Assembly: GCA_026400815.1 (NCBI GenBank)
Contig: JAPLOI010000048.1
Coordinates: 1-62,365, forward strand
DNA: 62,365 nucleotides
Direction of reading: 5' to 3'
Source of the DNA: Alphaproteobacteria bacterium
GTDB lineage: Bacteria; Pseudomonadota; Alphaproteobacteria; Acetobacterales; Acetobacteraceae
Below the pieces are notes generated by a model. That model did no database searches, was not told where the DNA came from, and saw nothing but the letters and a program-made list of their open reading frames with translations. A program made the translations under genes and the position numbers. This document shows positions 16,493 through 60,427 of the stretch, in pieces. How positions within the stretch are numbered: the first letter of the stretch is position 1; every line of letters begins with the position of its first letter.

Positions 16493-16723
16493 CCGAGTAA
16501 GGCCGAGGGAAGCAAGGCCAGGGCTCTGCCCTGGACCCGCCAGGGACCTGAGGTCCCTGGACCCACATAGGTTCCGCCTTCGGCGGGGAGGGGCCGCCTG
16601 GGTCTCGCCACCGCCTCGACGGCCCCTCCCCGCCGAAGGCGGAAAAGGTATCGGGGTCTGGGGCCTAAGGCCCCAGTGGGGTCCAGGGGCAAAGCCCCTG
16701 GCCTTTCTCCCATCCGCCTCACC
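16493..16723. repeat. Composite palindromic repeat (R element), copy 2, between yejA and yejB
   Basis: The repeat fills the whole gap between yejA and yejB. Hairpins in order are CCAGGGCTCTGCCCTGG (near 16518), AGGGACCTGAGGTCCCT (near 16543), and central 24-base arms at 16572-16595 and 16621-16644 with a 25-base spacer. GGGGCCTAAGGCCCC (near 16660) and CCAGGGGCAAAGCCCCTGG (near 16683) follow. Relative to copy 1 the second-hairpin types are swapped between the two sides. Confidence 0.9.
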
Positions 16724-38901: not shown

Positions 38902-39534
38902 CTATGAACCGCGCGATTTCGAAGTCAAGCGCGCCAGCGCCGCCCGCGCCTCCGAGGCATGGCCGGAGAGCGCGATCAGCGCCGGTATCTGCCCGGGCCG
39001 GCGCAGCACGGAGCGCAGCACGCGCCACGGGCCGATCCGCCCGCCGGAATCCAGCGCCTCCAGCGCCAGCGGCGGCAGCGCGAACCCGGCGGGATCGCAC
39101 ACCGCCCGCACCGCGGCAAACGGCAGCCCATGCCGCGCCGCCACCCGCGCGACGGCCCCGGATTCCATGTCCACGATCACCGAGTAGGTGTCGTAATGCG
39201 CGCGCACCTTCGATTCCGGCGTGGCCAGGATGTGGTCGGTGGCCAGGGCCCGCACCGGCATCTGGCCGCCGAACCGGGCGCACAGGGCATAGGTGGTGCG
39301 GTAGCGCTGGCCATGCTCCATCACCTCCGCCGGGATCACGATGGCCCCCGCGATCAGCCCGGGATCAAGCCCGCCGGCCAGGCCGAAACTGACCAGCGCG
39401 GTGGCGCCTTGGGCCACCAGCCGCTCCGCCGCCGCCTCCGCCCCCGCCGGCGTGCCGCCACCGGCCTCCGCCGTGCCGAGGCGGCGGGCAAGCTTGGCTT
39501 CCGCGGTGAGGCCTGTGACGAAGCCGAGAATCAG
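38902..39534 (-). CDS. hpnG: Hopanoid phosphorylase HpnG (adenosylhopane nucleosidase-like)
   Basis: A 210-residue member of the nucleoside phosphorylase superfamily. In hopanoid synthesis HpnG removes adenine from adenosylhopane. Segments: LILGFVTGLTAEAKLARRLG, VSFGLAGGLDPGLIAGAIVI, IVDMESGAVARVAARHGLPF, AVRAVCDPAGFALPP. No ATG, GTG or TTG lies in frame near the conserved N-terminus. The best start is CTG at 39534, which forms CTGA with the shc stop, just as ATGA and GTGA overlaps are used across this genome. The nearest standard in-frame start, GTG at 39681, would add 49 unrelated residues. Confidence 0.82.
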   Translation of the reverse strand: MILGFVTGLTAEAKLARRLGTAEAGGGTPAGAEAAAERLVAQGATALVSFGLAGGLDPGLIAGAIVIPAEVMEHGQRYRTTYALCARFGGQMPVRALATDHILATPESKVRAHYDTYSVIVDMESGAVARVAARHGLPFAAVRAVCDPAGFALPPLALEALDSGGRIGPWRVLRSVLRRPGQIPALIALSGHASEARAALARLTSKSRGS

Positions 39535-41447: not shown

Positions 41448-41460
41448 GGTGGAGCGTGCT

Positions 41461-42699: not shown

Positions 42700-42705
42700 G
42701 AGGAA

Positions 42706-42818
42706 GAGTCTTCTTTTTCTGAAGAAAAAGAAGCAAAAAGACTTTTCCGACTTTGCGCGGGGGCTCCACTGCGCCAGGTCGTAAAAGTTTTTTGGTTCTT
42801 TTTTTCAAAAAAGAACAT
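42706..42818. repeat. AT-rich paired palindrome element, locus 4, between hpnD and hpnE
   Basis: An A-type unit, CTTCTTTTTCT-GA-AGAAAAAGAAG (42710-42733) followed by CAAAAAGACTT, faces a B-type unit, GTTCTTTTTT-TC-AAAAAAGAAC (42795-42816) preceded by AAGTTTTTTG. About 50 bases lie between. The element occupies the whole gap between two genes of the hopanoid operon, where it could reduce read-through into hpnE, shc and hpnG. Confidence 0.7.
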
Positions 42819-42824
42819 TCTTGC

Positions 42825-43658
42825 TTATCCCAGCAGATGCCGCAGCGCGATGCGGATCTTCGCCCATTTGGACAGCTTCACGGGCTGATCCAGCTTTGCC
42901 CAACCGCGCGCTTCGAGCTTCGAGAGGATGGCCCCGTAGGTGGCGCCCATCAGGCGGGCGGGTTTCATCGCCGTGCGGTCGCAGCGCGCCATCGCGGCGA
43001 TGGCGCTGGCGTAATGGGCATGGGCACGGCTGGCCAGGGTGGCGCAGACGGCAGGCAGGGCGGGGTGCATGAGGGCGGCCTGGGCGTCGTGCGGGATGCC
43101 GAGGGGGTCGAGCAGGTCGCGGGGGAGGTAGAGGCGGCTGCGCTGCGCGTCTTCGTGGATGTCGCGCAGGATGTTGGTGAGTTGCAGGGCGCGGCCGAGG
43201 TGGTGGGCGACCTCGTCGGCGGCGGGGGAGGCATCGCCGAACGCGCGGACGGAGAGGCGGCCGACAGCGGCGGCGACGCGGTCGCAGTAGAGATCCAGCG
43301 TGGCTTCATCGGGGGCGACGATGCGGGCGTCGGCGTCCATTTCCATGCCGTCGATGACGGCGGCGAAGTCTTCCTGGCGCAGGGCGTAGGCCTGGATGGC
43401 GCGCAGCAGCTCGCGGGTGACGGGATCGGTGGCTTCGCCGCGGTAGAGGGCGGCGAGGTGGGCGCGCCATTCCTCCAGCCGGGGCTTGCGGGTTTCGAAG
43501 GGGGACTCCTCATCGGCGATGTCATCGACGATGCGGCAGAAGGCATAGATGGCGTACATCGCCTGGCGGCGCGGCGGCGGCAGGATGGCCATGCCGCGAT
43601 GGAAGCTGGTGCCGGCGGCGCGGACGATGGCTTCAACGTGTTCGATGTCGGACGGCAT
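42825..43658 (-). CDS. hpnD: Presqualene diphosphate synthase HpnD
   Basis: A 277-residue squalene/phytoene synthase family enzyme. The first aspartate-rich motif is YAFCRIVDDIADEE, and the second region is RALQLTNILRDIHEDAQRSR. HpnD condenses two farnesyl diphosphates to presqualene diphosphate. The frame is open upstream through hpnC, but the ATG at 43658 (MPSDIEHVEAIV) lies 2 bases after the hpnC stop and starts the conserved domain. Confidence 0.93.
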   Translation of the reverse strand: MPSDIEHVEAIVRAAGTSFHRGMAILPPPRRQAMYAIYAFCRIVDDIADEESPFETRKPRLEEWRAHLAALYRGEATDPVTRELLRAIQAYALRQEDFAAVIDGMEMDADARIVAPDEATLDLYCDRVAAAVGRLSVRAFGDASPAADEVAHHLGRALQLTNILRDIHEDAQRSRLYLPRDLLDPLGIPHDAQAALMHPALPAVCATLASRAHAHYASAIAAMARCDRTAMKPARLMGATYGAILSKLEARGWAKLDQPVKLSKWAKIRIALRHLLG

Positions 43659-43660
43659 GG

Positions 43661-44527
43661 CTACCAGTGACGGAGTGCGCCGAGCAGGGCGCCGATGGCG
43701 TTGGGTTTGGTGAGCTTCACGCGCCGGGCGATCGGGTCGCGCCGGCGCAGGCGGGCGGCGAGGCGTTCGGCGAGGCCGACGATGACCGCTGTTTCCAGGC
43801 GCAGCCGGCGATTGCGCACGCGGGTGGGCAGGGCGCGGGCGGTGCGGTTGAGGGTGTCGCACTCGTCCAGCAATTCGTCGATCACCGCGCGCAGGCCGGT
43901 TGTGGCGGCGGGGCGGGAGAGGTCGTCGATGCCGGCGCCGTGGCGGTCGAGCAGGTCCTGGGGCAGGTAGCAGCGATCCAGTGCCAGCAGGTCCTTCTGC
44001 AAATCCTGCAGGTGGTTGAGGACCTGGAGCAAGGCGCAGAGGGCATCGGACGGCGGGAAGGTGTCCTCGGATTCGCCGTGCAGGCACAGCACGTGGCGGC
44101 CAACGGGCATGGCGGAGTAGCGGCAATAGTCGAGCAGCTCGGCCCAGTTGGCGTAGCGCAGCTTGGTGGCATCTTGCCGGAAGGCGACGAGGAGGTCGGT
44201 GGCGTGGCGCGGGTCGGTGCCGGTTTCGGCGAAGCTGGCGCGCAGGCCGAGCGCGCTGGGGCTGCCGGTTTCAAGCTGGCCGAGGAGCACGGCTTCCATG
44301 ATGTCCAGCCGGCGGATCTTGTCGGCGGCGGGCAGGTCTGCGCTGTCCGCGATATCGTCCGCGTTGCGGGCGAAGGCGTAGTAGGCGTGGACGTGCGGGC
44401 GCAGCTGGGCGCTGATGAGGGCGGAGCCGACCGGGAAGTTCTCGTCGCCGCGTGCCTTGCCGGACCAGGATTCGACGTTGTCGTCCTGGGCGGGGGCTCG
44501 CGCGGTGGGGGGCTTGTTGTCGTTCAT
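43661..44527 (-). CDS. hpnC: Hydroxysqualene synthase HpnC
   Basis: A 288-residue squalene synthase family enzyme that converts presqualene diphosphate to hydroxysqualene. Motifs: FPVGSALISAQLRPHVHAYY, the aspartate-rich ARNADDIADSADL, and LQVLNHLQDLQKDLLALDRC. Its ATG overlaps the hpnB stop by 4 bases, and it is 2 bases from hpnD. Confidence 0.93.
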   Translation of the reverse strand: MNDNKPPTARAPAQDDNVESWSGKARGDENFPVGSALISAQLRPHVHAYYAFARNADDIADSADLPAADKIRRLDIMEAVLLGQLETGSPSALGLRASFAETGTDPRHATDLLVAFRQDATKLRYANWAELLDYCRYSAMPVGRHVLCLHGESEDTFPPSDALCALLQVLNHLQDLQKDLLALDRCYLPQDLLDRHGAGIDDLSRPAATTGLRAVIDELLDECDTLNRTARALPTRVRNRRLRLETAVIVGLAERLAARLRRRDPIARRVKLTKPNAIGALLGALRHW

Positions 44528-45633
44528 GCGCGGCCGGCCTGGTAGGCGCGGCCCTTCCAGGCGACGCCGCGGCCGGAATGGTGGCGCCAGGCGGCCCCCA
44601 ATGTCGCGGCCATGTAGAACAGGGCGATGAGCGGCAGGAACGGGGCCCAGGCGCGGCTGCGGCCGTAGCGGCGCAGGGTGGGCAGGAAGCTGGCGGCCAT
44701 GGCGGCCCAGGCGAGCAGGCCGGCGGCGCGTTCATTGCCGTGACCCAGCAGGGCGAAGGCCGGCGGGGCGAGGAAGATGAGGCCGAGCCCGAGCGTGGTG
44801 CCCAGCAGCAGGAGCGGGGAGTGGCGCAACTGCACATAGGCGGAACGGGCGATCATCGCCCAGATGCTGGCGGGGCCGGGGTACGGGCGGATGGAGCGGG
44901 CGAGGTCGCTGTGGCCGAGCCAGATGCGGCCGCCCTGTTTCACCTTCGCGGCCAGGGCGCAATCGTCGATCAGGCGGTCGGCAATGGCGGGGATGCCGCC
45001 GATGCGATCGAGGGCTTGGCGGGTGACGAGCATGGTGCCGCCGGCCGCCGCCGCGGTGGCGTTCAGCGGGTCGTTGGCGCGGGCGAAGGGGTAGAGCAGC
45101 TGGAAGAAATAGACGAAGGCCGGGATGAGGGCGCGCTCGGCGGCGGTTTCGGTGTTGAGGCGCACCATCTCGCTGACCAGGTCGCAGCCGGTGCGCTGCT
45201 GCTGGGCGACGAGGGTGGCGAGGTGGGTGGGGGCGTGCTCGATATCCGCGTCGGTCAGCAGCACCAGGGGTTCGCTGGTGGCGGTGACGCCCTGGTGCAC
45301 GGCCCAGAGCTTGCCGGCCCAGCCGGCGGGGCGGGGGGCGCCGCGGAGGACCGTGAGGCGTTCGGCGCCGGGCAGGGCGCGGGCGATAGCGGCGGTGTTG
45401 TCCTGCGAGGTGTCGTCCACCAGCACCACGCGGAAGCCCCCGGGGTAGTCCTGGGCGAGGAGGCTGCCGATGGAGCGGGCGATGACCTCGGCCTCGTCGC
45501 GTGCGGGAACGATGATGGCCACCGGGGGGGCGTGATCCGGGCGCATGGGGGCCAGGGCAGGGCCGGACTGCCAAAAGCGGCCGTGCAGCGCCAGCAAATA
45601 GAGCCAGGCCAGAAGGGCGAGGGCGGCGATCAT
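44524..45633 (-). CDS. hpnB: Hopanoid biosynthesis glycosyltransferase HpnB
   Basis: A 369-residue membrane-linked family 2 glycosyltransferase. An N-terminal helix (IAALALLAWLYLLALHG) precedes the GT2 domain: VAIIVPARDEAEVIARSIGS, VVLVDDTSQDNTAAIARA, LLTDADIEHAP and DRLIDDCALAAKVKQGG. Three to four C-terminal helices follow. It is linked to hopanoid biosynthesis by position, although the exact sugar acceptor is not settled. The ATG at 45633 overlaps the hpnA stop; the frame's earlier start at 45663 is inside hpnA. Confidence 0.9.
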   Translation of the reverse strand: MIAALALLAWLYLLALHGRFWQSGPALAPMRPDHAPPVAIIVPARDEAEVIARSIGSLLAQDYPGGFRVVLVDDTSQDNTAAIARALPGAERLTVLRGAPRPAGWAGKLWAVHQGVTATSEPLVLLTDADIEHAPTHLATLVAQQQRTGCDLVSEMVRLNTETAAERALIPAFVYFFQLLYPFARANDPLNATAAAAGGTMLVTRQALDRIGGIPAIADRLIDDCALAAKVKQGGRIWLGHSDLARSIRPYPGPASIWAMIARSAYVQLRHSPLLLLGTTLGLGLIFLAPPAFALLGHGNERAAGLLAWAAMAASFLPTLRRYGRSRAWAPFLPLIALFYMAATLGAAWRHHSGRGVAWKGRAYQAGRA

Positions 45634-46628
45634 GCCGGAACCATACCATTCGCCCGGAACCACGCCACGGCATCCGCAATGGCGGCCTGGGCGGGGCGGG
45701 GGGTGTAGCCGAGCTCGGCGATGGCCTTGGCGGAGGAGAAATACATCTTCTTGCGTGCCATGCGCAGGTGGTCGCGGGTGACCATCGGCTCAATGCCGAA
45801 GCGGGCAAGGCCTTCGCAGGCCAGCGCCACGGGCCAGAGCAGCCCGGCGGGCAGGCGAATGGAGGGCGGGCGGCGGCCGGAGGCGGCGGCGACCAAAGCG
45901 AGGATGTCGCGCAGGGAGAGGTTCTCGCTGCCGAGGATGTAGCGCTCGCCGATGCGGCCGCGTTCCAGGGCGAGGAGATGGCCCTCGGCCACGTCGTCGA
46001 CATGGACCACGCAGAGGCCGGTATCGATATAGGCGGGCATGCGGCCGGCGGCGGCGTCGGCGATCATGCGGCCGGTGGGGGTGGGCTTGATGTCGCGCGG
46101 GCCGATGGGGGCGGCGGGATTGACGATGACGGCCGGGATGCCTTCGTCGCGCACCAGGGCGAGCACGGCCTGCTCGGCGCGGTATTTGGATTTCTTGTAG
46201 ATGCCGGCGATGGCGGCTTCGGTGACTTGGGTGTCCTCCGTGGCCGGCGTGCCATCCGGCATCAGGCCAAGGGCGGCGACGCTGCTGCAATGGACGATGC
46301 GTTCCACCCCGGCGGCGTGGGCGGCGCGCAGCAGGGCGACGGTGCCGTCCACGTTGGCGCGCAGCATCGCCTCGGGGTCCGGGACCCAGATGCGGTAATC
46401 GGCGGCGACGTGCAGCACGAAGCGGCAGCCCTGCACGGCGCGGGCCAGGGAGGCGGGGTCGGAGAGGTCGCCCTCGGTGATCTCCAGGTCCAGGCCCTGG
46501 AGGTTGCGGCGGTCGGAATTCGGGCGGGCGAGGGCGCGCACGCGGTGGCCGCGGGCGAGCAGGGCGCGCACGACGGCGGAGCCGACGAAGCCGGTGGCAC
46601 CGGTGAGGAGGGTAGGGGGCGTGATCAC
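45630..46628 (-). CDS. hpnA: Hopanoid-associated sugar epimerase HpnA
   Basis: A 332-residue extended short-chain dehydrogenase. The nucleotide-binding motif is LLTGATGFVGSAVVRALLAR, and the catalytic YxxxK is in IYKKSKYRAEQ (YKKSK), with the serine in VHCSSVAALG. It belongs to the family named for its constant association with hopanoid genes; its substrate has not been established. It is the first gene of the hpnABCDEFG run. Confidence 0.93.
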   Translation of the reverse strand: MITPPTLLTGATGFVGSAVVRALLARGHRVRALARPNSDRRNLQGLDLEITEGDLSDPASLARAVQGCRFVLHVAADYRIWVPDPEAMLRANVDGTVALLRAAHAAGVERIVHCSSVAALGLMPDGTPATEDTQVTEAAIAGIYKKSKYRAEQAVLALVRDEGIPAVIVNPAAPIGPRDIKPTPTGRMIADAAAGRMPAYIDTGLCVVHVDDVAEGHLLALERGRIGERYILGSENLSLRDILALVAAASGRRPPSIRLPAGLLWPVALACEGLARFGIEPMVTRDHLRMARKKMYFSSAKAIAELGYTPRPAQAAIADAVAWFRANGMVPA

Positions 46629-49158: not shown

Positions 49159-50949
49159 ATGAGCGCCCCGGCCGGCCACGCCGTGTTGGCGGCGCTGGCG
49201 GCGGGCGGGCTGGCGTTGCTGGCGCTCGCGCTGGCGGCGGGCGTGGTGCGCGCGCGCCTGCTGCGCGGGGTGGCGATCGGGCTGGTCGTGGCCGCGGCGC
49301 TGGCGGCGCTGGGGTATCTGGCGCTCGGCGCGCCGGGGGCGCGGCTGGTGGTGCCGGTGCATCTGGCCGGGGTGGCGCCGGGGCTGGCGCTGGATGGGTT
49401 GGCCGCTTTCATCTTGCTGGTGCTGCTGCCCGGCCTGGCCGGCTGGTTGGCGGTGGTGCCGCGCCTGGCGCTGCCGCTGGCGGTGGCCGGGGCTTCGGTG
49501 CTGGCGGTGCTGGCGGCCGATGCGGGCACGCTGGGGCTGGCAGTGCTGGCGGCGGGGCTGGGCGCGGCGGTGATCGGCGGGCGCGGCGTGGCCTGGGCAG
49601 CCGGTGGGGCTGTGGCGGCGTTGGCGGTGGCGCTGGCGTTGGCGGCGGGGGATGGGCGGTTCGTGTCGGCCCGGGCGCAACCGGCGGAGGGTGCGGCGCT
49701 GTGGCTGATGGTCTTGCTTGTATTGGGGGCTGGGGTGTGGCTCGCCGCGCGGGCCGAATGGCGGCAGGGGCGCGAGGGCGGGCCGGCCGGGTCCGTGCTG
49801 GCGACGCTGGGGCTGTATCTGCTGGTGCGGCTGGGGCTGGATGTCGCGGGGCCGGTGGCCGGGGTTTGGGCAGGCGTGCTGGTGCTGGCGGGCGCGGCCG
49901 GGGTGGGGCTGGGTGGCGTGGCGGCGGTGCGGGCAGAGGCGCTGGGCGGCGTGGCCGCGGCGATTGGCGGGGTGCGCAGCGGGCTGGTGATGCTGGGGCT
50001 TGGCATCGCGGTGGCGGCGCGGGCGGGGGATGACGGGCCGGCGGCGGCGATGGCGCTAGGCGCCGCGCTGGTGCTGCTGGCGGTGCTGGGCTGGGCGCAG
50101 GCGCTGTGGGGGCTGGTGGCGGACGGGCTGGTCGGCGGTGCCGGCACGGAGGCGCTGGGCCGGCTGGGCGGGCTCGGGCGGCGGATGCGCATTACGCTGG
50201 TAGGTGCGCTGGCGGCCGGCTGGGCGGTGGCGCTGCTGCCGCCGGGCGGCGGGTTTGCCGGGCTGTGGCTGATGCTGCGCGCGGCGGTGACGCTGCCGCG
50301 CGGCGGCGGGGCGGCGGAATGGGCGATGGCCGGGCTGGTGGCGCTGGCGCTGGGCGCTGCGGCGGCGCTGCTGGGCTTCGCGATGCTGCGGGTGCTGGGC
50401 GTGGCCTTCCTCGGCCGGCCGCGCGGGCCACGTGCGGCGGCGGCGGAGGAGGTGGCGCCACGGCTGCGCTGGGCGATGCTGGGCCTCGCGCTGCTGCTGG
50501 GGCTGGCCGGGCTGCTGCCCGGGCTGGTGCTGCGCCTGGCCGCGCCGGCGGTGGCGCCGCTGGCCGGGGCGGCGCCGCCGGGCGGGATTCTGGGCGTGAT
50601 GGGCTATGCGCCGCTGGGGCTCGTGCTGCTGCTGGCGCTGGCCGCGGTGGCAGTGGCGCTGCTGGTGAAGGCGGCGAGCCCGGCCGGGCATCGCGTGGCG
50701 GCGAACTGGGATGGCGGGGCGCCGCCGCCGGCCTGGCTGCCGTTCGGCGATCCCTCGACGCAGGTGGGGGCCGCCGGGTTCGCGGCGGCGCTGTTGCGGC
50801 ACATGCCGAGCGCTGGGCTGGGCTGGCGAGTGGGACGATGTGCGGGGATGGCGCGCTGGCTGGGGGCCGTGCCGCGCCGCGTGGCGCCGGTGGCCGGCTT
50901 GGCGCTGCTGGGGGCGATGCTGCTGCTGCACGGGGTGGGGCTGTGGTGA
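49159..50949 (+). CDS. HyfB-like antiporter subunit of an Ehr-type complex
   Basis: A 596-residue protein with about 15 hydrophobic helices, extremely rich in Ala, Gly, Leu and Val. It aligns by eye with HyfB through LGLYLLVRLGLDVAGPV, GLVMLGLGIAV and EALGRLGGLGRRM, and its C-terminal helices. The residues that move protons in this family appear lost. The PLHxWLPxAH loop is replaced by ARAEWRQGREGG, the lysine of the DLKRLLAYSS-type segment by EALGGVAAAI, and the HALFK-type segment by GWAQALW. GGAGG-type Shine-Dalgarno sequence precedes the ATG. It heads a six-gene operon. Confidence 0.75.
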   Translation: MSAPAGHAVLAALAAGGLALLALALAAGVVRARLLRGVAIGLVVAAALAALGYLALGAPGARLVVPVHLAGVAPGLALDGLAAFILLVLLPGLAGWLAVVPRLALPLAVAGASVLAVLAADAGTLGLAVLAAGLGAAVIGGRGVAWAAGGAVAALAVALALAAGDGRFVSARAQPAEGAALWLMVLLVLGAGVWLAARAEWRQGREGGPAGSVLATLGLYLLVRLGLDVAGPVAGVWAGVLVLAGAAGVGLGGVAAVRAEALGGVAAAIGGVRSGLVMLGLGIAVAARAGDDGPAAAMALGAALVLLAVLGWAQALWGLVADGLVGGAGTEALGRLGGLGRRMRITLVGALAAGWAVALLPPGGGFAGLWLMLRAAVTLPRGGGAAEWAMAGLVALALGAAAALLGFAMLRVLGVAFLGRPRGPRAAAAEEVAPRLRWAMLGLALLLGLAGLLPGLVLRLAAPAVAPLAGAAPPGGILGVMGYAPLGLVLLLALAAVAVALLVKAASPAGHRVAANWDGGAPPPAWLPFGDPSTQVGAAGFAAALLRHMPSAGLGWRVGRCAGMARWLGAVPRRVAPVAGLALLGAMLLLHGVGLW

Positions 50950-51878
50950 GCTCCCTGCTCTCGGGCCTGGCGCAACTGCTGCACATGGCGCTGGTGCTGG
51001 CCGCGGCCCCGCTGCTGGCCGGCGTGCTGGCGTGGCTGGAGGCGCGGATGCAGGGCCGGGCCGGGCCTTCGCCATTGCAGCCCTGGCGTGACATGCGCCG
51101 GGCGCTGGGGCAGATGCCGGTGGTGGGCGAAGGTGCCTCCTGGGTGATGCGCGCCGCGCCGGGCCTGCGGGTGGCGGTGCTGGTGGTAGCGGCCTTTCTG
51201 GTGCCCGGGTTCACGCTGCACATGGCGCTGGCGCCGGCGGCGGACCTGCTGGTGGTGCTGGGGCTGCTGGGGCTGGCGCAGGCGCTGGGCGTGCTGGGCG
51301 CGCTGGACGAGGGAGCCGCCGCGCCGGGCCAGGCCGCGCTGGGTGCGGCGGTGCGGTCGGCGCTGGAGCTGCCGGCGCTGCTGGCCGTGGTGGCGGCGCT
51401 GGCACTGGCGGCCGGAGACACCGCGCTGCCCGCCATCCTGGAATTGCCATACGACGAGGCGCCGGGGCTGCTGCCGGCGCTGCTGCCACTGGGGCTGGCG
51501 CTGATGCTGGTGGCGGCCGGCCAGGGGGGAGTGCCGGTCGGCGGGCTCTCTGGCCGGTACCTGGCGCTGCACGAGGCGGCGGAGGCCTTGCGGATGGTGG
51601 TGTGGCTGGGGCTGGTGGCGGTGCTGGTGCTGCCACCCGGGCTGCCCGCCGCGCGCAACGACCCCGCGGCAACGGTAGGCGACTGGCTGGTATTCCTGCC
51701 GATCTGGCTGGCGAAGCTGGGGGGTCTGGCGGTGGCGGTGGCGGCGCTGCGGGTGCTGCTGCCGGCGCGGACGGCGCGGCAGGCGGCGGCGCTGGCGGGG
51801 CTCGCCTGCCTGTTGGCCCTGCTGGGTCTGGCGCTGCTGCTGGCCGGGCAGGGCGTGCGGGCGGAGTGGGCGCGATGA
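50946..51878 (+). CDS. HyfC/NuoH-like membrane subunit
   Basis: A 310-residue membrane protein similar to HyfC and NuoH, the subunit that links the soluble arm to the antiporters. Recognisable loops are WLEARMQGRAGPSPLQPWRD (30-49), GEGASWVMRAAPGLR (61-75), SALELPALLAVVAALALAAG, and LSGRYLALHEAAEALRMVVW. The last keeps the glutamate of the family's quinone-side loop. GTG at 50946 overlaps the previous TGA (GTGA). Confidence 0.78.
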   Translation: MSSLLSGLAQLLHMALVLAAAPLLAGVLAWLEARMQGRAGPSPLQPWRDMRRALGQMPVVGEGASWVMRAAPGLRVAVLVVAAFLVPGFTLHMALAPAADLLVVLGLLGLAQALGVLGALDEGAAAPGQAALGAAVRSALELPALLAVVAALALAAGDTALPAILELPYDEAPGLLPALLPLGLALMLVAAGQGGVPVGGLSGRYLALHEAAEALRMVVWLGLVAVLVLPPGLPAARNDPAATVGDWLVFLPIWLAKLGGLAVAVAALRVLLPARTARQAAALAGLACLLALLGLALLLAGQGVRAEWAR

Positions 51879-52471
51879 CGGGGGTGCTCGACAGCGCCGT
51901 GCTGGCGAACGCCGCCTCGGTGCTGGGCGCGGCGGCGCTGCTGGTGCTGGCGCTGGCGGTGCCGCTGGTGCGGCGGGCCACTTCGGCCGGTGTGCTGGTG
52001 GCGGGGCAGGCGGCGTGCCTGGTACTGTTGCTGCTGGCGCAGGCGTGGCTGCAGGGCAGCTGGCAGTGGCTGGCGCTGGCCGCGGCCACGGTGGCGGTGA
52101 AGCTGGTGGCGTTGCCGCGTGGGTTGCGCATCCTGGCGCCGGCCCTGGGCGAAGGCGCCGCGCCGGCCTGGCTGGTGGTGGCGGGCGCGGCGCTGGCCGT
52201 GCCGGTGGTCGCTTTGGCCGCGCCGGCCGCCGGGCTGGGCATGGCCGCCGCGCTGGCCGTGGTGCTGCTGGGCGCGCTCTGGGCGGCGCTGCGGCGGGAC
52301 GCGACCGGGCAGGTGGCCGGGGTGCTGACGCTGGAGAACGGGCTGGTGCTCGCCCTGGCCGGGCTGCCGGTGGTGCCGGGTGCCGCACTGCTGGCGCTGG
52401 CGACGCTTGCGCTGCCGGCGGCGGTGGGCGTGGCGCTGCTGCGCCGGGTGCTGCCGGAGGAACGGGCGTGA
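51875..52471 (+). CDS. HyfE/NuoK-like membrane subunit
   Basis: A 198-residue protein with about six helices, matching HyfE in length and in LVALPRGLRILAPALGEG. Near the C-terminus it retains LTLENGLVLALAG. E154 is the equivalent of the functional membrane glutamate of NuoK/HyfE. It is thus one of the few charged membrane residues kept in this complex. The start ATG overlaps the hyfC-like stop by 4 bases. Confidence 0.75.
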   Translation: MTGVLDSAVLANAASVLGAAALLVLALAVPLVRRATSAGVLVAGQAACLVLLLLAQAWLQGSWQWLALAAATVAVKLVALPRGLRILAPALGEGAAPAWLVVAGAALAVPVVALAAPAAGLGMAAALAVVLLGALWAALRRDATGQVAGVLTLENGLVLALAGLPVVPGAALLALATLALPAAVGVALLRRVLPEERA

Positions 52472-53703
52472 GCGCGCTGGGCTGGGTGGCGGCTGGGGTG
52501 CCGCTGGCGGGGGCCGCGGCGGTTGTGCTGCTGCGGCAGCGGCCGGCGGCGCCGTTCGTGGCGCTGGCCGCGGCGGCGGTTTCTCTTGTGGTGGCGATGG
52601 CGCTGCCCTGGCAGGGCGGTGCCGGGGCGATACTGCGGGTGGATGCGCTGGCGGCGCACATGGCGATGGCGGTTGGGCTGTGCGGGCTGCTGGCGCTGTG
52701 GCTCGGGCGCGCGCCGCCGGCCGTGGCCGCGCAGGGGCTGGCGATGCAGGCCGGGCTGCTGCTGGCGGTGATGGCGGAGGGGCCGGTGCTGGCCTGGGTG
52801 GGGCTGGAGGGGGCGGTGCTGGCGCTGCTGCTCGCCCCTGCCCGCGGCGGCGAGGCGGCGTGGCGCGCGGCGGTGGCGCTGGTGCCGGCGCTCGGCCTGG
52901 CCTTGCTCGGCGGGCTGGTGCTGTGGCTGGCGGCCGGCGGGGCGGGATCTTGGGTCGGGCTGGTGACGGCGTCGCCGGGCCTGGCGCCGGAGCTGCTCAA
53001 CCTGGCGTGGATGCTGCTGCTGGGCGGGCTGGCGACCGTGGCGGGCCTGGCGCCACTGCACGGCTGGATGCGCGCGGCGTCGCGCGGCGGCGCGGCGGTG
53101 TGGCTGCCGGCGCTGGGGGCTGCGGCATTGCTGCTGCTGCTCCGCGCGCGCGGGGTGGTGGTCGCGCAGGATGACGCGGTGGAGCCCGGCCCGCCGCTGC
53201 TGGCGCTGGGGCTGGCGAGCCTGGCCTGGGCGGTGCTGGGGCTGTGGCGTGAGGACAGGGTGGCGCGCGATGCGGCGCTGTTCGTGGCCGGGCTGGTGGC
53301 GGTGGCGTTCGGGCTGGGCGGCGATGCCGTGCCGGCCGGGCTGGTGTTGTTGAGCGCGGGTGTGGTGCTGGCGCCGCTGGTGGCGTTCGGGCCCGGCCGG
53401 GTGCGCGCGGCCGCCCTGGCGGCATTGGCGCTGCTGCCGCCCTTCCCGAGCTTCGGCGCCGCGCTGGCGCTGCTGGGCGAGGCGGCGGATGCGATGCCGT
53501 TCCTGGCCGTGCCGCTGGCGGCGCTGATGGTGGCTGGCGCGGGCGGGCTGGCGCGCGCGGCGCTGGCTTCATGGCGGGCGCCGGTGGCGATGCCGCCCCG
53601 CGACCTGTTGCCGGCCGGGCTGGTGCTGGCGGGGTTGGTCGTGGCGGGCATGGTGCCCGCGGCGGCGCGCTGGTTCGAATTTGTGGCGGAGGGCCTGCGA
53701 TGA
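52468..53703 (+). CDS. HyfF-like antiporter subunit, shortened and degenerate
   Basis: A 411-residue membrane protein, shorter than usual HyfF (about 480-530). The segment GLATVAGLAPLHGWMRAASR corresponds to the family's TKAGLxPLHxWLPDAH loop. It keeps PLH but has valine for the lysine and loses the LPDAH end. The later HALFK-type helix reads AALFVAGLVAVAFGL. It is therefore doubtful as a proton channel. GTG start at 52468 overlaps the hyfE-like stop (GTGA). Confidence 0.72.
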   Translation: MSALGWVAAGVPLAGAAAVVLLRQRPAAPFVALAAAAVSLVVAMALPWQGGAGAILRVDALAAHMAMAVGLCGLLALWLGRAPPAVAAQGLAMQAGLLLAVMAEGPVLAWVGLEGAVLALLLAPARGGEAAWRAAVALVPALGLALLGGLVLWLAAGGAGSWVGLVTASPGLAPELLNLAWMLLLGGLATVAGLAPLHGWMRAASRGGAAVWLPALGAAALLLLLRARGVVVAQDDAVEPGPPLLALGLASLAWAVLGLWREDRVARDAALFVAGLVAVAFGLGGDAVPAGLVLLSAGVVLAPLVAFGPGRVRAAALAALALLPPFPSFGAALALLGEAADAMPFLAVPLAALMVAGAGGLARAALASWRAPVAMPPRDLLPAGLVLAGLVVAGMVPAAARWFEFVAEGLR

Positions 53704-55166
53704 CCCTGGCAGCCACGTTGCGGGCCCAGCCCGGGCTGCCCTGCCGGCCCTGGGGGCGGCATGCCGTCTCCCCGGAGCAGTGGGTGGCGCTGGGGCAGGA
53801 CCCGTCCCAGGCCTTCGTGGCGCTGTGGGGCGATGCGCTGGTGGCCCATGCGCTGTGGCGCGATGCGGCGGGGATGCTTGCGGTCTCCGTGCCGGTGGCG
53901 GATGGGCGCTACCCCGCGCTGTCGCCCTGGCGGCCGGGGGCGGTGCTGTTCGAGCGCGCGCTGCGCGAGCTGTGGGGCCACGCGGCACAGGGCGGCGATG
54001 CCGGTGGGTGGCTGGACCATGGCGCCTGGGATGTCTCTGCGCCGATGCTGGCGCGCCCGCCGGCGCGGGAGGCCGCGGCGCAGTCTGGGCCGGAGGACGG
54101 CGAGGCGCCGGAGCAGCTGGCGTTCGGGCCGCTGGCGGGCGGCATCGCGGAGGCCGGGCAATTCCGGCTGTTCCTGTGCGATGGCGTGGTGGCACGGGCG
54201 GAGGCGCGGCTGGGCTGGCTGCACAAGGGCATTCCGGCGCTGATGCGCGGCAAGTCTCCGCGCGCGGCCAGCCGGTTCGCCGCAAGGCTGGCGGGCGATG
54301 CGCCGGTGGCCCACGGCATCGCCTTCGCGCGCGCCGCCGAGATTGTCTCCGACGTGGCGCCGCCTTCGCGCGCGCTGTCGTTGCGGGCGGCGATGGCGGA
54401 GGCGGAGCGGATGGCGAGCCATCTGGCCGATATCGAGGCGCTGGCGCTGGCGGCCGGCGTGCCCCTGGTGGCCGCGCTGTGCCAGCGCCATGTGGAGGCG
54501 TTGCGGCGCGCGGCGCTGCGGGCCTTCGGGCACCGGCTGATGATGGATGTGGTGGTGCCCGGCGGGCTGGCGGTGGATGCCTCGGCCGAAGGGGAGGAGG
54601 CGCTGCGCTTGGCGGCGGCGGCGCTGGGGCGCGAGCTGGCCGCGCTCGGCCGGCTGTGCGAGCCACTGCTGCGCGGGATCGAGGGGGTGGCCGTGGTGCC
54701 GGCGGCGCTGGCCGCCGCGCTGGTGCCGGGCGGGCCGGCCGGGCGGGCCAGCGGGCGCGATGCCGATCTCCGGCGCGCGCCGGGCTACCGGCCCTACCAC
54801 GACCTGGTGGTGGCACCGGTGCAGGAGCCGGATGGCGACGCGGCGTCGCGGCTGCTGGTGCTGCTGGCGGAGCTGCGCGATTCCGCGCGCATGCTGCGCA
54901 CCGTGCTGGCCGACCTGCCGGCGGGCGAGATCATGGTGCCGCTGCCGATGGTGTCTGGCGAGGGGTTCGGCTGGGCCGAGGGGCCGCGCGGCGATGTCTG
55001 GACCTGGCTGCGGCTGGAGGGCGGGCAGATTGCCGGTGCCTTCCAGCGCGACCCCGGCTGGCTGCACCTGCCGTTGCTGGAAGCGGCGGCGCTGGGGGCG
55101 GAGCCGGCGGAATGGCCGGTGATCCGCGCCTCCTTCGGCCTGTCGCATGCGGGGATGGATCTGTGA
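53700..55166 (+). CDS. HyfG-like large subunit without [NiFe]-binding cysteines
   Basis: A 488-residue protein of the NuoCD/HyfG type. The N-terminal about 115 residues are NuoC-like. The catalytic part begins LAFGPLAGGIAEAGQFRLFL and continues ARLGWLHKGIPALMRGKSP. Where group 4 hydrogenases have RxCGxC, this protein reads R196-L-A-G-D-A201: both cysteines are alanine. The C-terminus, ending VIRASFGLSHAGMDL, has no DPCxxC motif. It cannot hold a NiFe centre. This matches energy-converting-hydrogenase-related (Ehr) large subunits. It overlaps both neighbours by 4 bases. Confidence 0.8.
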   Translation: MTLAATLRAQPGLPCRPWGRHAVSPEQWVALGQDPSQAFVALWGDALVAHALWRDAAGMLAVSVPVADGRYPALSPWRPGAVLFERALRELWGHAAQGGDAGGWLDHGAWDVSAPMLARPPAREAAAQSGPEDGEAPEQLAFGPLAGGIAEAGQFRLFLCDGVVARAEARLGWLHKGIPALMRGKSPRAASRFAARLAGDAPVAHGIAFARAAEIVSDVAPPSRALSLRAAMAEAERMASHLADIEALALAAGVPLVAALCQRHVEALRRAALRAFGHRLMMDVVVPGGLAVDASAEGEEALRLAAAALGRELAALGRLCEPLLRGIEGVAVVPAALAAALVPGGPAGRASGRDADLRRAPGYRPYHDLVVAPVQEPDGDAASRLLVLLAELRDSARMLRTVLADLPAGEIMVPLPMVSGEGFGWAEGPRGDVWTWLRLEGGQIAGAFQRDPGWLHLPLLEAAALGAEPAEWPVIRASFGLSHAGMDL

Positions 55167-55699
55167 GCGAAGAGGCACCCTCGCCGCTGCGGCGTCTGTG
55201 GCGGAACCTGCGCGGGCGGCCGGGCGCGGTGCCGCTGGCGCCGCTGGACACGGTGGCGGTGGAGGATCTGGCGGCGCGGTTGCAGGCGGCGGGGATCCGC
55301 CGGCTGGGCCGCGGGCTTTCCTTGCACGCGATCGACCCCGGCAGCTGCGGCGGCTGCGAGCTGGAACTGCGGGCGCTGCGTGGCGTGGTGTACGAGTTGG
55401 AGCGCTTCGGCCTGCGCTTCGTGGACAGCCCGCGCCAGGCGGAGGTGCTGCTGGTAACCGGGCCGGTGACCCGCGCGTTGCAGGCACCGCTGGTGGCGGC
55501 GTGGGAGGCGACGCCGGACCCCAAATTCGTGATCGCGATCGGCGACTGCGCGATCGATGGCGGCGTGTTCAAGGGCAGCTACGCGGTGGCCGGCGGGGTG
55601 GACAGCACGCTGCACGTGGATTTCGTGGTGCGCGGCTGCCCGCCGGCGCCGGAGGAGATCCTGGAGGGGCTGCTGCTGCTGTTGGAGGCCGGAGCGTGA
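55163..55699 (+). CDS. HyfI/NuoB-like iron-sulfur small subunit
   Basis: A 178-residue NuoB/HyfI homologue. All four ligands of the proximal [4Fe-4S] cluster are present: C62 and C65 in GSCGGCELEL, C129 in IAIGDCAIDGGVFKG, and C159 in VVRGCPPAPEEI. The GTG at 55163 overlaps the hyfG-like stop (GTGA). It is the last gene of the operon. No NuoI/HyfH-like ferredoxin subunit is encoded. The RTX gene ends 52 bases away on the other strand. Confidence 0.85.
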   Translation: MSEEAPSPLRRLWRNLRGRPGAVPLAPLDTVAVEDLAARLQAAGIRRLGRGLSLHAIDPGSCGGCELELRALRGVVYELERFGLRFVDSPRQAEVLLVTGPVTRALQAPLVAAWEATPDPKFVIAIGDCAIDGGVFKGSYAVAGGVDSTLHVDFVVRGCPPAPEEILEGLLLLLEAGA

Positions 55700-55751: not shown

Positions 55752-58700
55752 CTAGGTGAGCATGAACCAGTCCGCCGCGACGGTGCTGGTGATACCGCTG
55801 AGCACGATAGTGAGGTCGGCGGTGCTGTCGCCGTTCACATCGCCCTGGATCAGCGTCTGGCCAGGGAGGCTGGTGAAGCGCAACTGCCCGGCGGTGCCGG
55901 AGAAAGCCGCTGCGCCGATGAAGGCGAAGGGGTTGGTGCCGGCCAGGATCGTGTTCGCGTCGATCGCCGCGAGGTTCAGCACCTCGCCCGCAACACGGTC
56001 GAAATCGGTGATGGTGGTGGAGTGCGCCGCGGCCGGGCCGAGCGCGGCGGCGGTGAACAGGAAGCGGTCGACGCCCACGCCGCCGGTGAGCGTATCGGCG
56101 CCGCCGCCACCGGTGAGGGTATCGATGCCCGCGCCGCCGGAGAGCACGTTGGCCAACACATCTCCGGTGACGATGTCGTTGCCGGTGCCGCCAATGATGT
56201 TCTCGATGTTGCGCAGCGTGTCCTCGGCGATGCCGCCGACGCTGACCGTGGCGGCGGTGGCGCCGGCCAGGGTCACGACCACGGGCAGGGTTTTCTCGCT
56301 GTAATCCGCCGTGTCTATCCCGGCGCCGCCATCGATCGTGTCGGTGCCGGCGCGGCCGGCGAACATATTGGCCTGGGCATCGCCGGTAAGGCTGTCATTG
56401 CCGCTGCCGCCGATGATGTTCTCGATGCTCCGCAGCATGTCCTCGGCCAGTCCGCCGACGCGCACCAGCACGAGCGAGGCGCCGTTGAGGATGACCGAAA
56501 CCGCCAGTGTTTTTTCGCTGAACATCGCGGTGTCGCTGCCGGTGCCGCCATCCAGCGTGTCGGAACCCGCGAGGCCGGCCAGCGTGTCGTTGCCGGCGCC
56601 GCCGGTCAACCCGTTGCCGCCGGCATCGCCGGTGAGGGTGTCGTTGCCGTTGCCGCCGATGATGTTCTCGATGGCGACGACGAAATCGTTGGCCACGCCG
56701 CCGACGGTGGCTTGCGCCGGGGTGGCGCCGGCCAGGGCGAGCACCACGGGCGACGTGGCACCGGCAAAGGTGACCGTGTCGCTGCCCGCGCCACCGTCCA
56801 GCGTGTCGACCCCCGCGCCGCCGGAAAGCGTGTCGTCGCCCAGCCCGCCGGAGAGGGTGTTGACCGCGCTGTCGCCGGCCAGGATGTCGTTGCCGCTGCC
56901 GCCGATGATGTTCTCGATGTTGCGCAGCGTGTCCTCGGCCACCCCGCCGATGGTGACGGTGGCGTTGGTGGCGCCGTTCAACGTGATCACGACGGCGTCG
57001 GTGCGGTCGCCGTAGTCCGCGGTGTCGGTGCCCGCGGCACCATCCAGCACGTCGGTGCCGGCACCGCCGGAAAAGCGGTTGGCCAGCGTATCGCCGGTGA
57101 GCGTGTCGTTGCCGCTGCCGCCGATCAGGTTCTCGATGTTGCGCAGCGTGTCCTCAGCCACGCCGCCCACGGTGGCGGTGGCGGCGGTGGCGCCGTTGAG
57201 CGTGACGACGACGGCGGTGGTTTTCTCGGCGAAGGAGGCGGTGTCGGTGCCGATGCCGCCATCCAGCGTATCGGTGCCGGCGCCGCCGGTGAGCAGGTCG
57301 TCGCCGCCGGCGCCGTTCAGCACGTCGTTGCCGCCCTGGCCATCGAGCTGGTTGGCCAGGGCATCGCCGGTGAGCGTGTCGGCCGCGCTGCCGCCGGCGA
57401 TGCCCTCGATGTTCGTGACCGTGTCTTCGGCCACGCCGCCGACGCTGACCGTGGCAGCGATGGCGCCGTTCAGCGTGGCCACCACGGCCAGGGTCTTGTC
57501 GGTATAGTCGGCGATGTCGATGCCGGTGCCGCCATCCAGGATGTCGTTGCCGCCGCCGCCGCGCAGCCGGTCGTTGCCGCCCCCGCCATTGAGGGTTTCC
57601 ACGGCGGCGCTGCCGGCCAGCATGTCGTTGCCGCTGCCGCCGATCGCGGCCTCCACGTTGCGCACCATGTCGTCGGCGATGCCGCCCACGGTGGCCTGGG
57701 CGAAGCTGGCGCCAGCCAGGGTGAGCACGACGGGATCGGCCATGTCGGAGAAATCCACCGTGTCCGTGCCGGTGCCGCCATCCAGCACGTCGGCGCCCAC
57801 GCCGCCGCGCAACGTGTCGTTGCCGCCGCCGCCCTCGATCCGGTTGACCAGCGAATCGCCGGCCAGGATGTCGTTGCCGGTGCCGCCGAGGATGTTCTCC
57901 ACATCGCGTACCGAACCCTGCGCGACGCCGCCAATGGTGATCGCGGCCGGGATGTAGCGCTTGAGCGTGAGCACAACGGCGTTGGTGGCGGTGGCGAAGC
58001 TGATCGTGTCTGTGCCCGTGCCGCCTTCGATCTGGTCGAGGCCGCCGCCGCCGGAGAGCGTGTCGTCGCCTGCGCCGCCGACGATCCCGTTGGCCTGGGC
58101 GTCGCCGGTGAGCGTGTCGTTGCCGCTGCCGCCCACGATGCTCTCGATGTTGCGCAGCGTGTCCTCCGCCACGCCGCCCACGGTGACGGTGGCGGCGGTG
58201 GCGCCGTTCAGCGTGACGACGACGGGCGTGGTCTTCTCGGCATAGCTGGCTAGGTCCTGGATGCCGGCGCCGCCATCCAGCGTGTCGTTGCCGGCGCCGC
58301 CGATCAGCGTGTCCAGGCCGTCGCCGCCGGACAGCGTGTCGTTGCCGGCACCGCCCTCCAGCGTGTTGGCGAAGGCATTGCCGGTGAGCGTGTCGGCGCC
58401 GGAGCCGCCGACGATGCCCTCGATGCTGATCAGCGTGTCCTCGTCCACGCCGCCGACCTTGACGGTGCTCGCGAGGGAGTCGTCCAGCGTGACCGTGACC
58501 GCCAGGGTCTTGTCGGAATAGTCGGCGATGTCGAACTGCAGGCCGCCATCCAGCGTGTCGTTGCCGCCGCCGCCGCGCAGCCGGTTGGGACGCATATCGC
58601 CGGTGAGCGTGTCGTTGGCGCTGCCGCCGATCAGGTTCTCGATATTGGCCAGCGTGTCCTCGGCGATGCCCCCCACGGTGACGGTGGCGGCGGCGCCGAG

Positions 58701-60359
58701 ATTGAGCGTGACGACAACGGCGGTGGTCTTTTCGGCATAGGAGGCGGTGTCGATGCCCGCACCACCATCCAGCACGTCGGCGCCGGCATTGCCCTGCAGC
58801 AGGTCGTTGCCGGCGCCGCCGGAGAGCGCGTTGGCGTTGGCATCGCCGGTGATGCTGTCGTCGGTCTCGCCGCCGATGACATTCTCGATGCCGCGCAGGA
58901 TGTCCTCGGCCACGCCGCCGATGCTGGCCGTGCCATCCAGGGCGGCGCGCAGCACCACCGTCACCGGCAACTGGGTGCCGGTGAAATCGGCGGTGTCGAT
59001 GCCGATGCCGCCATCCAGCGTATCGGCACCCAGGCTGCCCTTCAGCCGATCGTTGCCGCCGCCGCCGAGCAGGGCGTTGGCGCCGGCATCGCCGGTGAGC
59101 ACGTCGTTGCCGCTGCCGCCGGTGATGTTCTCGATGTTGCGCAGCGTGTCCTCGGCCACGCCGCCGATGGTGACGGTGGCGGCGGTGGCGCCGTTGAGGG
59201 TGACGGCGACGGCGGCGGTCTTCTCGCTGTAGTCGGCGGTGTCGATCCCGGCGCCGCCATCGATCGTGTCGGCGCCCGCGCGCCCGGCGAAGCGGTTGGC
59301 CTGGGTGTCGCCGGTGAGCGTATCTGCGCCGCTGCCGCCAATGAGGTTCTCGATATTGCGCAGCGTGTCTTCCGCCACGCCGCCGACGGTGACGATGGCG
59401 CTGGCGGCGCCGTTCAGGGTCACGACAACGGCGGTGGTCTTCTCGGAATAGCTTGCCGTGTCGATCCCTTGGCCGCCATCCAGCGTGTCCGCTCCGGCCA
59501 GGCCGGCCAGCACGTCGTCGCCCGCCCCGCCTTCCAGCGTGTTGGCCGCGGCGTCGCCGGTGAGGCTGTCGTTGCCGGCGCCGCCGCGCAGGTTCTCGAT
59601 GCCGGCCACGCTGTCCTCGGCGATGCCGCCGACGAACACGGTGGCGGGGGTGTCGCCCGCCAGCACCACGGCGACCGCGGCAATCTTGTCGGCATAGTCG
59701 GCGGTGTCGATGCCGGCGCCGCCCTGCAGCGTGTCGGCCCCCTCGCCGCCGCGCAGCGTGTCGTGGCCCAGCCCGCCGGACAGGGTGTTGGCCATGGCGT
59801 CGCCGAACAGCGTGTCGTTGCCGCTGCCGCCGATCACGTTCTCGATGTTGCGCAGCGTGTCCTGCACGATGCCCTGGATGGTCACAACGGCGTCCGCCGC
59901 CCCGTTCAGGGTGACGGCGACGGCCCCGGTGGCCTCGGCGAAGCTGGCGGTGTCGATGCCGGCGCCGCCGTCGATGGTGTCCTTGCCGGCAAAACCGGCC
60001 AATACGTCGGCGAAGGCAGAGCCGGTGATCGTGTCCGCACCGGCCAGCAGGGCGGCCCAGGCGGTGGCGGCGGGCCCGGCCGCCAGCGCCTGGGCCGCCG
60101 GCAGCGCCAGGTTGAGCCCGGACAGGAAGCGCACCGGCGTGCCGGCCGCGTTGATGCGCAGGGCGGTGATGGTGCCGGCGCTCGGCAGCCCGGCGGTAGC
60201 GGTGAAGCTGCCGAACAGGTCCAGCGAGCGATTGTCCGGCAACGTGATCCGGAACCCGTCCGGCAGGGTGGAGAATGTGGCCAGCGACAGCTGCGCGAGC
60301 CCGGCGAGCGGGTTCTCGGTGGTGACGTTGATCGACGTCGTGGCAGAGAAACTGGCCAT
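55752..60359 (-). CDS. Large RTX (hemolysin-type calcium-binding) repeat protein
   Basis: A 1535-residue secreted-type protein. An N-terminal domain of about 105 residues with no recognised fold is followed by 16 modules of 82 or 73 residues. Each module has a beta segment (such as VVVTLNGATAATVTVGGVAE then DTLRNIENIIGG) and one to three RTX nonapeptides (GGxGxDxLx) that bind calcium. The C-terminal 120 residues (STTITDFDRVAGEVLNLAAI to VAADWFMLT) resemble the type I secretion region of serralysin-like proteins. No catalytic domain is seen, so an adhesin or matrix role is likely. The ATG at 60359 is preferred to a TTG at 60371. No type I secretion genes lie in the window. Confidence 0.85.
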   Translation of the reverse strand: MASFSATTSINVTTENPLAGLAQLSLATFSTLPDGFRITLPDNRSLDLFGSFTATAGLPSAGTITALRINAAGTPVRFLSGLNLALPAAQALAAGPAATAWAALLAGADTITGSAFADVLAGFAGKDTIDGGAGIDTASFAEATGAVAVTLNGAADAVVTIQGIVQDTLRNIENVIGGSGNDTLFGDAMANTLSGGLGHDTLRGGEGADTLQGGAGIDTADYADKIAAVAVVLAGDTPATVFVGGIAEDSVAGIENLRGGAGNDSLTGDAAANTLEGGAGDDVLAGLAGADTLDGGQGIDTASYSEKTTAVVVTLNGAASAIVTVGGVAEDTLRNIENLIGGSGADTLTGDTQANRFAGRAGADTIDGGAGIDTADYSEKTAAVAVTLNGATAATVTIGGVAEDTLRNIENITGGSGNDVLTGDAGANALLGGGGNDRLKGSLGADTLDGGIGIDTADFTGTQLPVTVVLRAALDGTASIGGVAEDILRGIENVIGGETDDSITGDANANALSGGAGNDLLQGNAGADVLDGGAGIDTASYAEKTTAVVVTLNLGAAATVTVGGIAEDTLANIENLIGGSANDTLTGDMRPNRLRGGGGNDTLDGGLQFDIADYSDKTLAVTVTLDDSLASTVKVGGVDEDTLISIEGIVGGSGADTLTGNAFANTLEGGAGNDTLSGGDGLDTLIGGAGNDTLDGGAGIQDLASYAEKTTPVVVTLNGATAATVTVGGVAEDTLRNIESIVGGSGNDTLTGDAQANGIVGGAGDDTLSGGGGLDQIEGGTGTDTISFATATNAVVLTLKRYIPAAITIGGVAQGSVRDVENILGGTGNDILAGDSLVNRIEGGGGNDTLRGGVGADVLDGGTGTDTVDFSDMADPVVLTLAGASFAQATVGGIADDMVRNVEAAIGGSGNDMLAGSAAVETLNGGGGNDRLRGGGGNDILDGGTGIDIADYTDKTLAVVATLNGAIAATVSVGGVAEDTVTNIEGIAGGSAADTLTGDALANQLDGQGGNDVLNGAGGDDLLTGGAGTDTLDGGIGTDTASFAEKTTAVVVTLNGATAATATVGGVAEDTLRNIENLIGGSGNDTLTGDTLANRFSGGAGTDVLDGAAGTDTADYGDRTDAVVITLNGATNATVTIGGVAEDTLRNIENIIGGSGNDILAGDSAVNTLSGGLGDDTLSGGAGVDTLDGGAGSDTVTFAGATSPVVLALAGATPAQATVGGVANDFVVAIENIIGGNGNDTLTGDAGGNGLTGGAGNDTLAGLAGSDTLDGGTGSDTAMFSEKTLAVSVILNGASLVLVRVGGLAEDMLRSIENIIGGSGNDSLTGDAQANMFAGRAGTDTIDGGAGIDTADYSEKTLPVVVTLAGATAATVSVGGIAEDTLRNIENIIGGTGNDIVTGDVLANVLSGGAGIDTLTGGGGADTLTGGVGVDRFLFTAAALGPAAAHSTTITDFDRVAGEVLNLAAIDANTILAGTNPFAFIGAAAFSGTAGQLRFTSLPGQTLIQGDVNGDSTADLTIVLSGITSTVAADWFMLT
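56185..59990 (-). repeat. Sixteen tandem 246/219-base modules within the RTX gene
   Basis: Counting the DTLRNIEN-type block gives 16 units. Typical units are 82 residues (246 bases). Shorter ones are 73 residues (219 bases) and lack one nonapeptide. Several units near 56900-57200 and 58100-58250 differ by only a few bases, suggesting recent duplication or gene conversion. Confidence 0.8.
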
Positions 60360-60427
60360 ATCGAAATGCAACCGTCAGGTAACTGAGCGGCGCTGATCCG
60401 AAACAGAGCGTTTCAAATCTGCTACAG

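Follow-up and report, generated by a model that had tools for sequence, protein, structure and literature searches.

The window analysed here is a stretch of 62,365 nucleotides, contig JAPLOI010000048.1 of an alphaproteobacterium from the family Acetobacteraceae (GenBank assembly GCA_026400815.1), and our subject is a six-gene operon related to those of hydrogenase-4 that lies at 49159-55699 on its plus strand, as do all operon features given below. Its six open reading frames (ORFs), joined by five consecutive 4-base ATGA or GTGA overlaps, follow the order hyfB-C-E-F-G-I, just as a prediction made earlier from the letters of the window (hereafter the original prediction) had stated. The predicted products are B, a HyfB/NuoL-like antiporter-like subunit of 596 amino acids (49159-50949); C, a HyfC/NuoH-like subunit of 310 (50946-51878); E, a HyfE-like membrane subunit of 198 (51875-52471); F, a HyfF/NuoN-like antiporter-like subunit of 411 (52468-53703); G, a HyfG/NuoCD-like large subunit of 488 (53700-55166); and I, a HyfI/NuoB-like [4Fe-4S] subunit of 178 (55163-55699).

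The operon and its assignment

Matches above cut-off to the Pfam families NADHdh (6e-10), Complex1_49kDa and Oxidored_q6 identify C, G and I, respectively. B and F match the hydrogenase-4 subunit B and F models far under cut-off and E gives a match of only 0.05; E was assigned by an iterative profile. An AlphaFold2 (AF2) model of B, of low confidence (predicted local distance difference test, pLDDT, 56) and taken for its fold only, best matches Escherichia coli HycC, followed by NuoL and Mrp chains. The AF2 model of G (pLDDT 79, predicted template modelling score 0.84) finds its best fold match in HycE of E. coli formate hydrogenlyase (FHL; 7z0s_E), and by sequence the solved relatives of G are this same chain and, as the best, subunit 6cfw_L of the Pyrococcus membrane-bound hydrogenase (MBH; 1e-18).

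By its predicted subunits and their order, the operon fits an energy-converting-hydrogenase-related (Ehr) complex, as the original prediction had proposed. The available portions of the cited papers describe Ehr complexes as a widespread class (PMC6349859, PMC10432482, PMC10284858, PMC7894505) that has no NiFe ligands (PMC6349859, PMC10432482, PMC10284858), name NuoL-like, HyfE-like, large and small subunits in Geobacter sulfurreducens (PMC7894505), suspect charge translocation (PMC6349859), and give no established reaction. The window likewise has a HyfG/NuoD-family large subunit without the NiFe cysteine pairs, together with NuoL-like, HyfC-like, HyfE-like and NuoN-like membrane subunits and a small subunit; of these, the NuoL-like, HyfE-like, large and small types are shared with the Ehr complex of G. 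sulfurreducens (GSU0739-45). What it lacks, at the level of residues only, are the ion-moving residues of the antiporter-like subunits B and F.

Because the Ehr class is already described and widespread, the missing NiFe site is not the new part. The original prediction had called this operon the best candidate in the window for an undescribed system, and in this it was incomplete: Ehr as such is known, but the loss of the proton path goes beyond the Ehr descriptions in the available portions of the papers, and we found no description of this complex in Acetobacteraceae in the open-licence literature searched.

Residues lost and residues retained

To read the proton path we compared B at five positions (HyfB E142, K221, K252, K352 and E407) and F at three (HyfF E143, K232 and E406), using profiles built from copies that keep these residues, here called pump-intact, plus E. 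coli HyfB and HyfF. A locus was judged intact on B K221, K352 and E407 and on F K232 and E406 (or Asp). The read-out for the window's B comes from its 95%-identical sister L005 (locus, genome and genus labels such as L005, G047 and g33 are our own), which reads L-TQL at the B positions, where intact copies read EKKKE, and EVA at the F positions, where they read EKE. The window's own F has no lysine at all in 411 residues, and in the stretch aligned to transmembrane helix 7 (TM7), GLATVAGLAPLHGW (53026-53067), the pump lysine is replaced by V191. B has a single lysine in 596 residues, at position 504, and its region aligned to TM7-TM8 (49732-49830), which reads KAGLxPLHxWLPxAH...SGAMTKV in pump-intact copies, is free of lysine.

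The other two membrane subunits have changed as well. In C, glutamates of pump-intact copies are replaced at residues 134 and 142 of the E-channel stretch (51297-51377), and the region of the quinone-loop/E-channel motif RxPxDNPxxHLExTMxHE is mostly deleted (51513-51575); the same losses mark the C subunits of the clade to which the window belongs. E has Leu at positions 121 and 172 in place of Glu, and keeps E154, a residue that is not kept in loci resembling those of acetic acid bacteria. This wider change, in which the proton path of B, F, C and E has gone along with a pocket loop of G (see below), is the larger feature that the original prediction missed.

The losses in B and F go together. 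Both subunits could be read in 61 of 92 loci, of which 46 are intact in both, 15 are not intact in both, and none is mixed. The 15 represent 12 distinct genomes (L005/L082, L006/L084 and L009/L103 are counted twice) and include L085, which is only partly lost (B EKKGQ, F EKL), while the intact 46 include L069, with Asn in place of K252. The 31 loci set aside, in which either B or F escaped detection or three or more of the five B positions were gaps, include all of the acetic-acid-bacteria-like loci but one (L112). Where a key residue is replaced, it is mostly by Leu, Ala, Val, Gly or Gln. Outside Acetobacteraceae, among loci from 14 other alphaproteobacterial families, B reads EKKKE in 15/15 readable loci and F reads EKE in 16/16. 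If the whole proton-coupling function had been dispensed with, one would expect just this pattern, with B and F affected jointly and C, E and the G loop also affected within that clade. Separately, L085 and L089 (F ETE) show partial loss of pump residues within pump-intact groups, as if the loss were restarting there.

In the acetic-acid-bacteria-like loci, pump loss is suggested by their placement in the pump-lost clade, by losses in C and E, and by the scarcity of lysine: the reference sequence of genus g33 has none in B, none in E and three in F, and that of genus g54 has two, one and one.

The large subunit carries no NiFe site. RLAGDA (residues 196-201; 54285-54302) replaces RxCGxC, and the C-terminus reads ASFGLSHAGMDL (55128-55163) in place of DPCxxC, with Gly at the position of the canopy Asp/Asn. 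Both absences had been predicted; cysteine occurs in G only at 15, 160, 261 and 320, and the two motifs of a group 4 NiFe hydrogenase are thus missing. At the aligned sites, all 68 G homologues compared lack both cysteine pairs. A lone Cys occupies the fourth position of the first motif in one row, 25 of the 68 rows have one Cys a residue ahead of the first C-terminal ligand position, and a text search for RxCxxC or DPCxxC in the unaligned rows returned one string only, from L108, a row with neither pair at its aligned sites. The window's G is therefore not a lone broken copy. According to the original prediction, homologues with intact CxxC pairs and a dN/dS near 1 (the ratio of nonsynonymous to synonymous substitution rates) would have pointed to a singly mutated, decaying hydrogenase, and both the 68 homologues and the dN/dS values given below rule this out.

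Whether the alanines of RLAGDA are fixed had also been asked, and they prove specific to the lineage. Pump-intact copies follow the pattern RLSGDSTVAH...KSFNCSYSGVDL, all 35 of them having Ser where the first ligand would be and Asn in place of the canopy Asp; the canopy Asn is found in none of the derived set (31 rows, window included). Derived copies also lose the beta1-beta2 loop pattern GPxHAGxxEPGHF, and the window's version of this pocket loop, FGPLAGGIAEAGQF (54123-54164), has Ala where pump-intact copies conserve His. Many other conserved residues of G are kept, namely H175, R196, R229, E234, R237, H241, R279, R349, D356, R358, D380, R384 and E391, some of which (among H175, R196, R237, H241 and R358) we take to lie near the cluster. 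Subunit I retains exactly the four cysteines that had been predicted, C62, C65, C129 and C159, the predicted ligands for one [4Fe-4S] cluster. All four are kept in 63 of 66 rows (three of 69 loci gave no I), the exceptions being L016, L104 and L076, the last a poor fragment match.

These features separate the operon from its better-known relatives. With E. coli Hyf and FHL-1 it shares the relative gene order B-C-E-F-G-I and the fold matches of G and B to HycE and HycC, but it lacks the NiFe site, the E-channel and the HyfA, D, H and J genes, and its genome has no HypD. With complex I (Nuo) it shares homologues of NuoB, NuoCD, NuoH and NuoL/N, many conserved G residues being common to NuoCD; in contrast, the operon has no NADH module or other electron-input gene, the NuoD quinone-site His column of the beta1-beta2 loop is Ala, the antiporter Lys and Glu residues are gone, and separate complex I-type genes exist in the genome. 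The likeness to Pyrococcus MBH rests on 6cfw_L; unlike MBH and the Mbx/MBS (membrane-bound sulfane reductase) complexes, the operon contains no ferredoxin-type subunit, as predicted, and no Mrp-type extra subunits. MBS, too, is not known to contain NiFe.

Relatives, selection and genomic setting

In the source genome (5.1 Mb, 89 contigs, 97.6% complete), contig C7 holds one other NuoB-like gene, one NuoD-type gene and three antiporter-type genes, all of complex I type, and contig C20 another two antiporter-type genes. No NiFe large subunit scores above cut-off in this genome, and HypD, the only maturation family searched, is missing, so that no hydrogenase was found; nor was a second Ehr. The predicted lack of maturation genes thus holds across the genome for HypD, the sole family to which the search extended.

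Matches to G occur in 391 of 397 Acetobacteraceae genomes at E <= 0.001, a count that includes complex I NuoD. Among the 150 matches listed (window included), all have E <= 4.3e-90 and at least 43% identity, and 149 cover residues 51-488 or more. When genomes were drawn from across the class, this type of G appeared at E < 1e-90 in 17 of 142, 15 of them outside Acetobacteraceae; from 14 of these 15, one family per genome, we fetched the 16 outside loci read above. Relatives also come from named species, among them Caldovatus aquaticus (L009), Caldovatus sediminis (L010) and Komagataeibacter melaceti (L024). Three loci from metagenome-assembled genome (MAG) records titled Asaia bogorensis (L002, L004 and L006) have operons near those of the window's genus (77-96% identity in I, 69-92% in G) and far from the Komagataeibacter locus, and these names look wrong. 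Ehr large and small subunits also appear in MAGs titled Thermoplasmata archaeon, bacterium and Methanospirillum (L014, L015 and L016), possibly through mis-binning, with identities near 30% for the large subunit and 46-55% for the small one.

Quick trees of G (69 rows) and of G plus I (65 rows) both place the pump-intact copies as a paraphyletic group. The main pump-lost clade, with the window's genus inside, has 27 rows and a Shimodaira-Hasegawa-like approximate likelihood ratio support of 98 in the first tree, and 25 rows with 99 in the second. A second pump-lost clade, L079 with Caldovatus loci (L103 and L010), sits among other intact copies with support of 98 and 99; placing all pump-lost copies in one clade is not rejected by an approximately unbiased test (p 0.087), the group having been named after a tree was seen. 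Two genomes, G047 (Caldovatus aquaticus) and G062, each carry one intact and one pump-lost copy, as probably do G065 and G096, whose second copies are incomplete.

Selection was gauged by Nei-Gojobori dN/dS, the absolute values of which are rough here because third codon positions in the operon are about 92% GC. Between the window and three congeners, values are 0.02-0.09 for I (lowest of all genes in two pairs, close to lowest in the other), 0.06-0.10 for C, 0.10-0.12 for E, 0.15-0.24 for G, 0.28 for B (one pair) and 0.27-0.44 for F; over all 15 comparisons they run from 0.017 to 0.44, with all six genes below 0.5 and no stops. For g33 and g54, two acetic-acid-bacteria-like genera of the clade holding Komagataeibacter, we compared five genes with seven genomes (I lies outside the fetched stretch of g33) and six genes with five genomes, respectively. 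Of these 65 comparisons 53 gave a value, 0.02-0.34, and 12 were saturated. G is kept in 23/23 genomes of the two genera, 22 of which show no other NuoD-type match with this query. Such purifying selection indicates that the remaining assembly is in use.

The original prediction had set the complex in a hopanoid-making context, and a hopanoid cluster does lie on the minus strand at 38902-46628, with squalene-hopene cyclase and HpnA, B, C, D and E above their model cut-offs and an HpnG-like phosphorylase just under its own. However, HpnA-D also adjoin five pump-intact loci (L087, L090, L091, L094 and L095) and two derived loci outside the window's genus, from which it follows that the window copy occupies the site of an intact Ehr. 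Acetic-acid-bacteria-like loci have different neighbours, which we take from their sequences to be pssA, psd, pepA and holC. We therefore set aside a functional link to hopanoid synthesis: the context is positional, and the position seems inherited.

Elsewhere, 22 of the 103 sequences scanned (one pair, L009/L103, being duplicates) carry an aldo/keto reductase gene (Pfam Aldo_ket_red) upstream of B and in the orientation of the operon, often within about 300 bases, for example at L187:521-1363. It adjoins pump-lost loci and four pump-intact ones (L062, L063, L072 and L098). None occurs in the window, whose genome has its best match at an unlinked site (contig C30, 55% identity). To our knowledge this enzyme uses no flavin or FeS cluster, and we treat it as a lead to a partner rather than as evidence for one. 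Convergent to the operon, the minus strand at 55752-60371 holds an ORF of 1539 amino acids with RTX calcium-binding repeats (HemolysinCabind, 21 stretches) and a serralysin-type C-terminal domain.

A possible function for the complex

The window complex probably has a new, non-pumping job. The reading we favour, with a rough probability of 0.5, is a non-pumping Ehr derivative that would act, anchored in the membrane, as a redox relay or sensor with a single cluster, its soluble partner being encoded elsewhere. It would descend from a proton-coupled Ehr of the complex I/group 4 hydrogenase superfamily whose coupling machinery would have been shed: from B and F the Lys and Glu residues, from C its quinone loop and E-channel, from E a pair of glutamates, and from G the loop of the substrate pocket. 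Purifying selection still maintains all six genes as a set, including the [4Fe-4S] subunit I and many of the conserved residues in G. The six subunits would then assemble and work without pumping. For such an assembly, a role as single-cluster redox relay or sensor seems most economical, since almost every row preserves the [4Fe-4S] ligands.

Several observations weigh against this proposal. First, in genus g100 three of the four cluster cysteines of I are replaced in 3/3 genomes (L104, L129-L131) and G is kept, so that a redox role would be hard to maintain there; I is also looser in this genus, with dN/dS of 0.35 compared to 0.02-0.03 for the nuoB frame. Second, at some loci the small-subunit gene is distant from G or was not found: L116 (g33) has an I-type gene some 4 kb past G, at 16318-16836 in the locus orientation used; in G062 (L180) it probably lies apart, some 0.38 Mb from the pump-lost G; and L067, L076 and L080 have G and no I in the roughly 20 kb fetched. 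Third, the window has no linked partner, and the sole recurrent same-strand oxidoreductase neighbour elsewhere also adjoins pump-intact L098. Fourth, selection is measured best in the acetic-acid-bacteria-like loci, whose B and F our profiles mostly fail to recognise, and B of L115 holds 17 lysines, none at the positions read. Finally, E. coli FHL HycC shares the missing TM7 lysine, having Leu in its place (PMC9474812), and the loss of one lysine does not prove the loss of pumping.

The g100 lineage and the lost pocket loop also leave room for a scaffold role. We entertain tentatively a pseudo-enzyme machine, in which six subunits would assemble with no catalytic metal, pocket or proton path for a selected, non-bioenergetic function, the FeS cluster being dispensable in one genus. 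More doubtful is a non-redox scaffold, a structural membrane assembly (organising lipids or another enzyme, for example) in which the cluster of I would be structural only. Such a scaffold would account for the retention of G (dN/dS 0.13-0.14) and I in g100, for the loss of the substrate-pocket loop across the clade, and for E having the lowest dN/dS of the five subunits compared in g33 (0.02-0.07), but it sits poorly with four cysteines kept in nearly every row and with the low dN/dS of I in the window's genus.

An ordinary, energy-conserving Ehr that still pumps by way of other residues (Arg, His or Asp) is unlikely, since the lineage of the window has lost its proton path. The HycC precedent speaks for it, as do the 35 arginines of the window's B, the TM5-type glutamate E114 kept in F, and E154 of subunit E. 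Nevertheless, B, F, C, E and the G loop have all been lost in the same clade, F and B are left with no lysine and one, respectively, and the key columns are filled mostly with the residues listed above. Pump-intact relatives, by comparison, fit Ehr as described. Least probable is a decaying Ehr heading for loss: the loss appears to be repeated or staged (the second pump-lost clade and the partial cases L085 and L089), F and B are the fastest subunits and some I genes are displaced or missing, but there are no stops, dN/dS is well below 1 in every gene measured, including those from small genomes in which no NuoD was found, and G persists throughout g33 and g54.

Together, these loci amount to a natural set of complex I mutants, in which sister operons of one family have the proton path either intact or stripped, and in at least two cases both forms reside in one genome. 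That B and F lost their residues jointly suggests a single shared function for these two antiporter-like subunits in ordinary Ehr, a point relevant to the role of Ehr itself. Relatives occur in genera near a named acetic acid bacterium, Komagataeibacter, and if the stripped complex is indeed functional, it would represent a use for this fold other than energy conversion.

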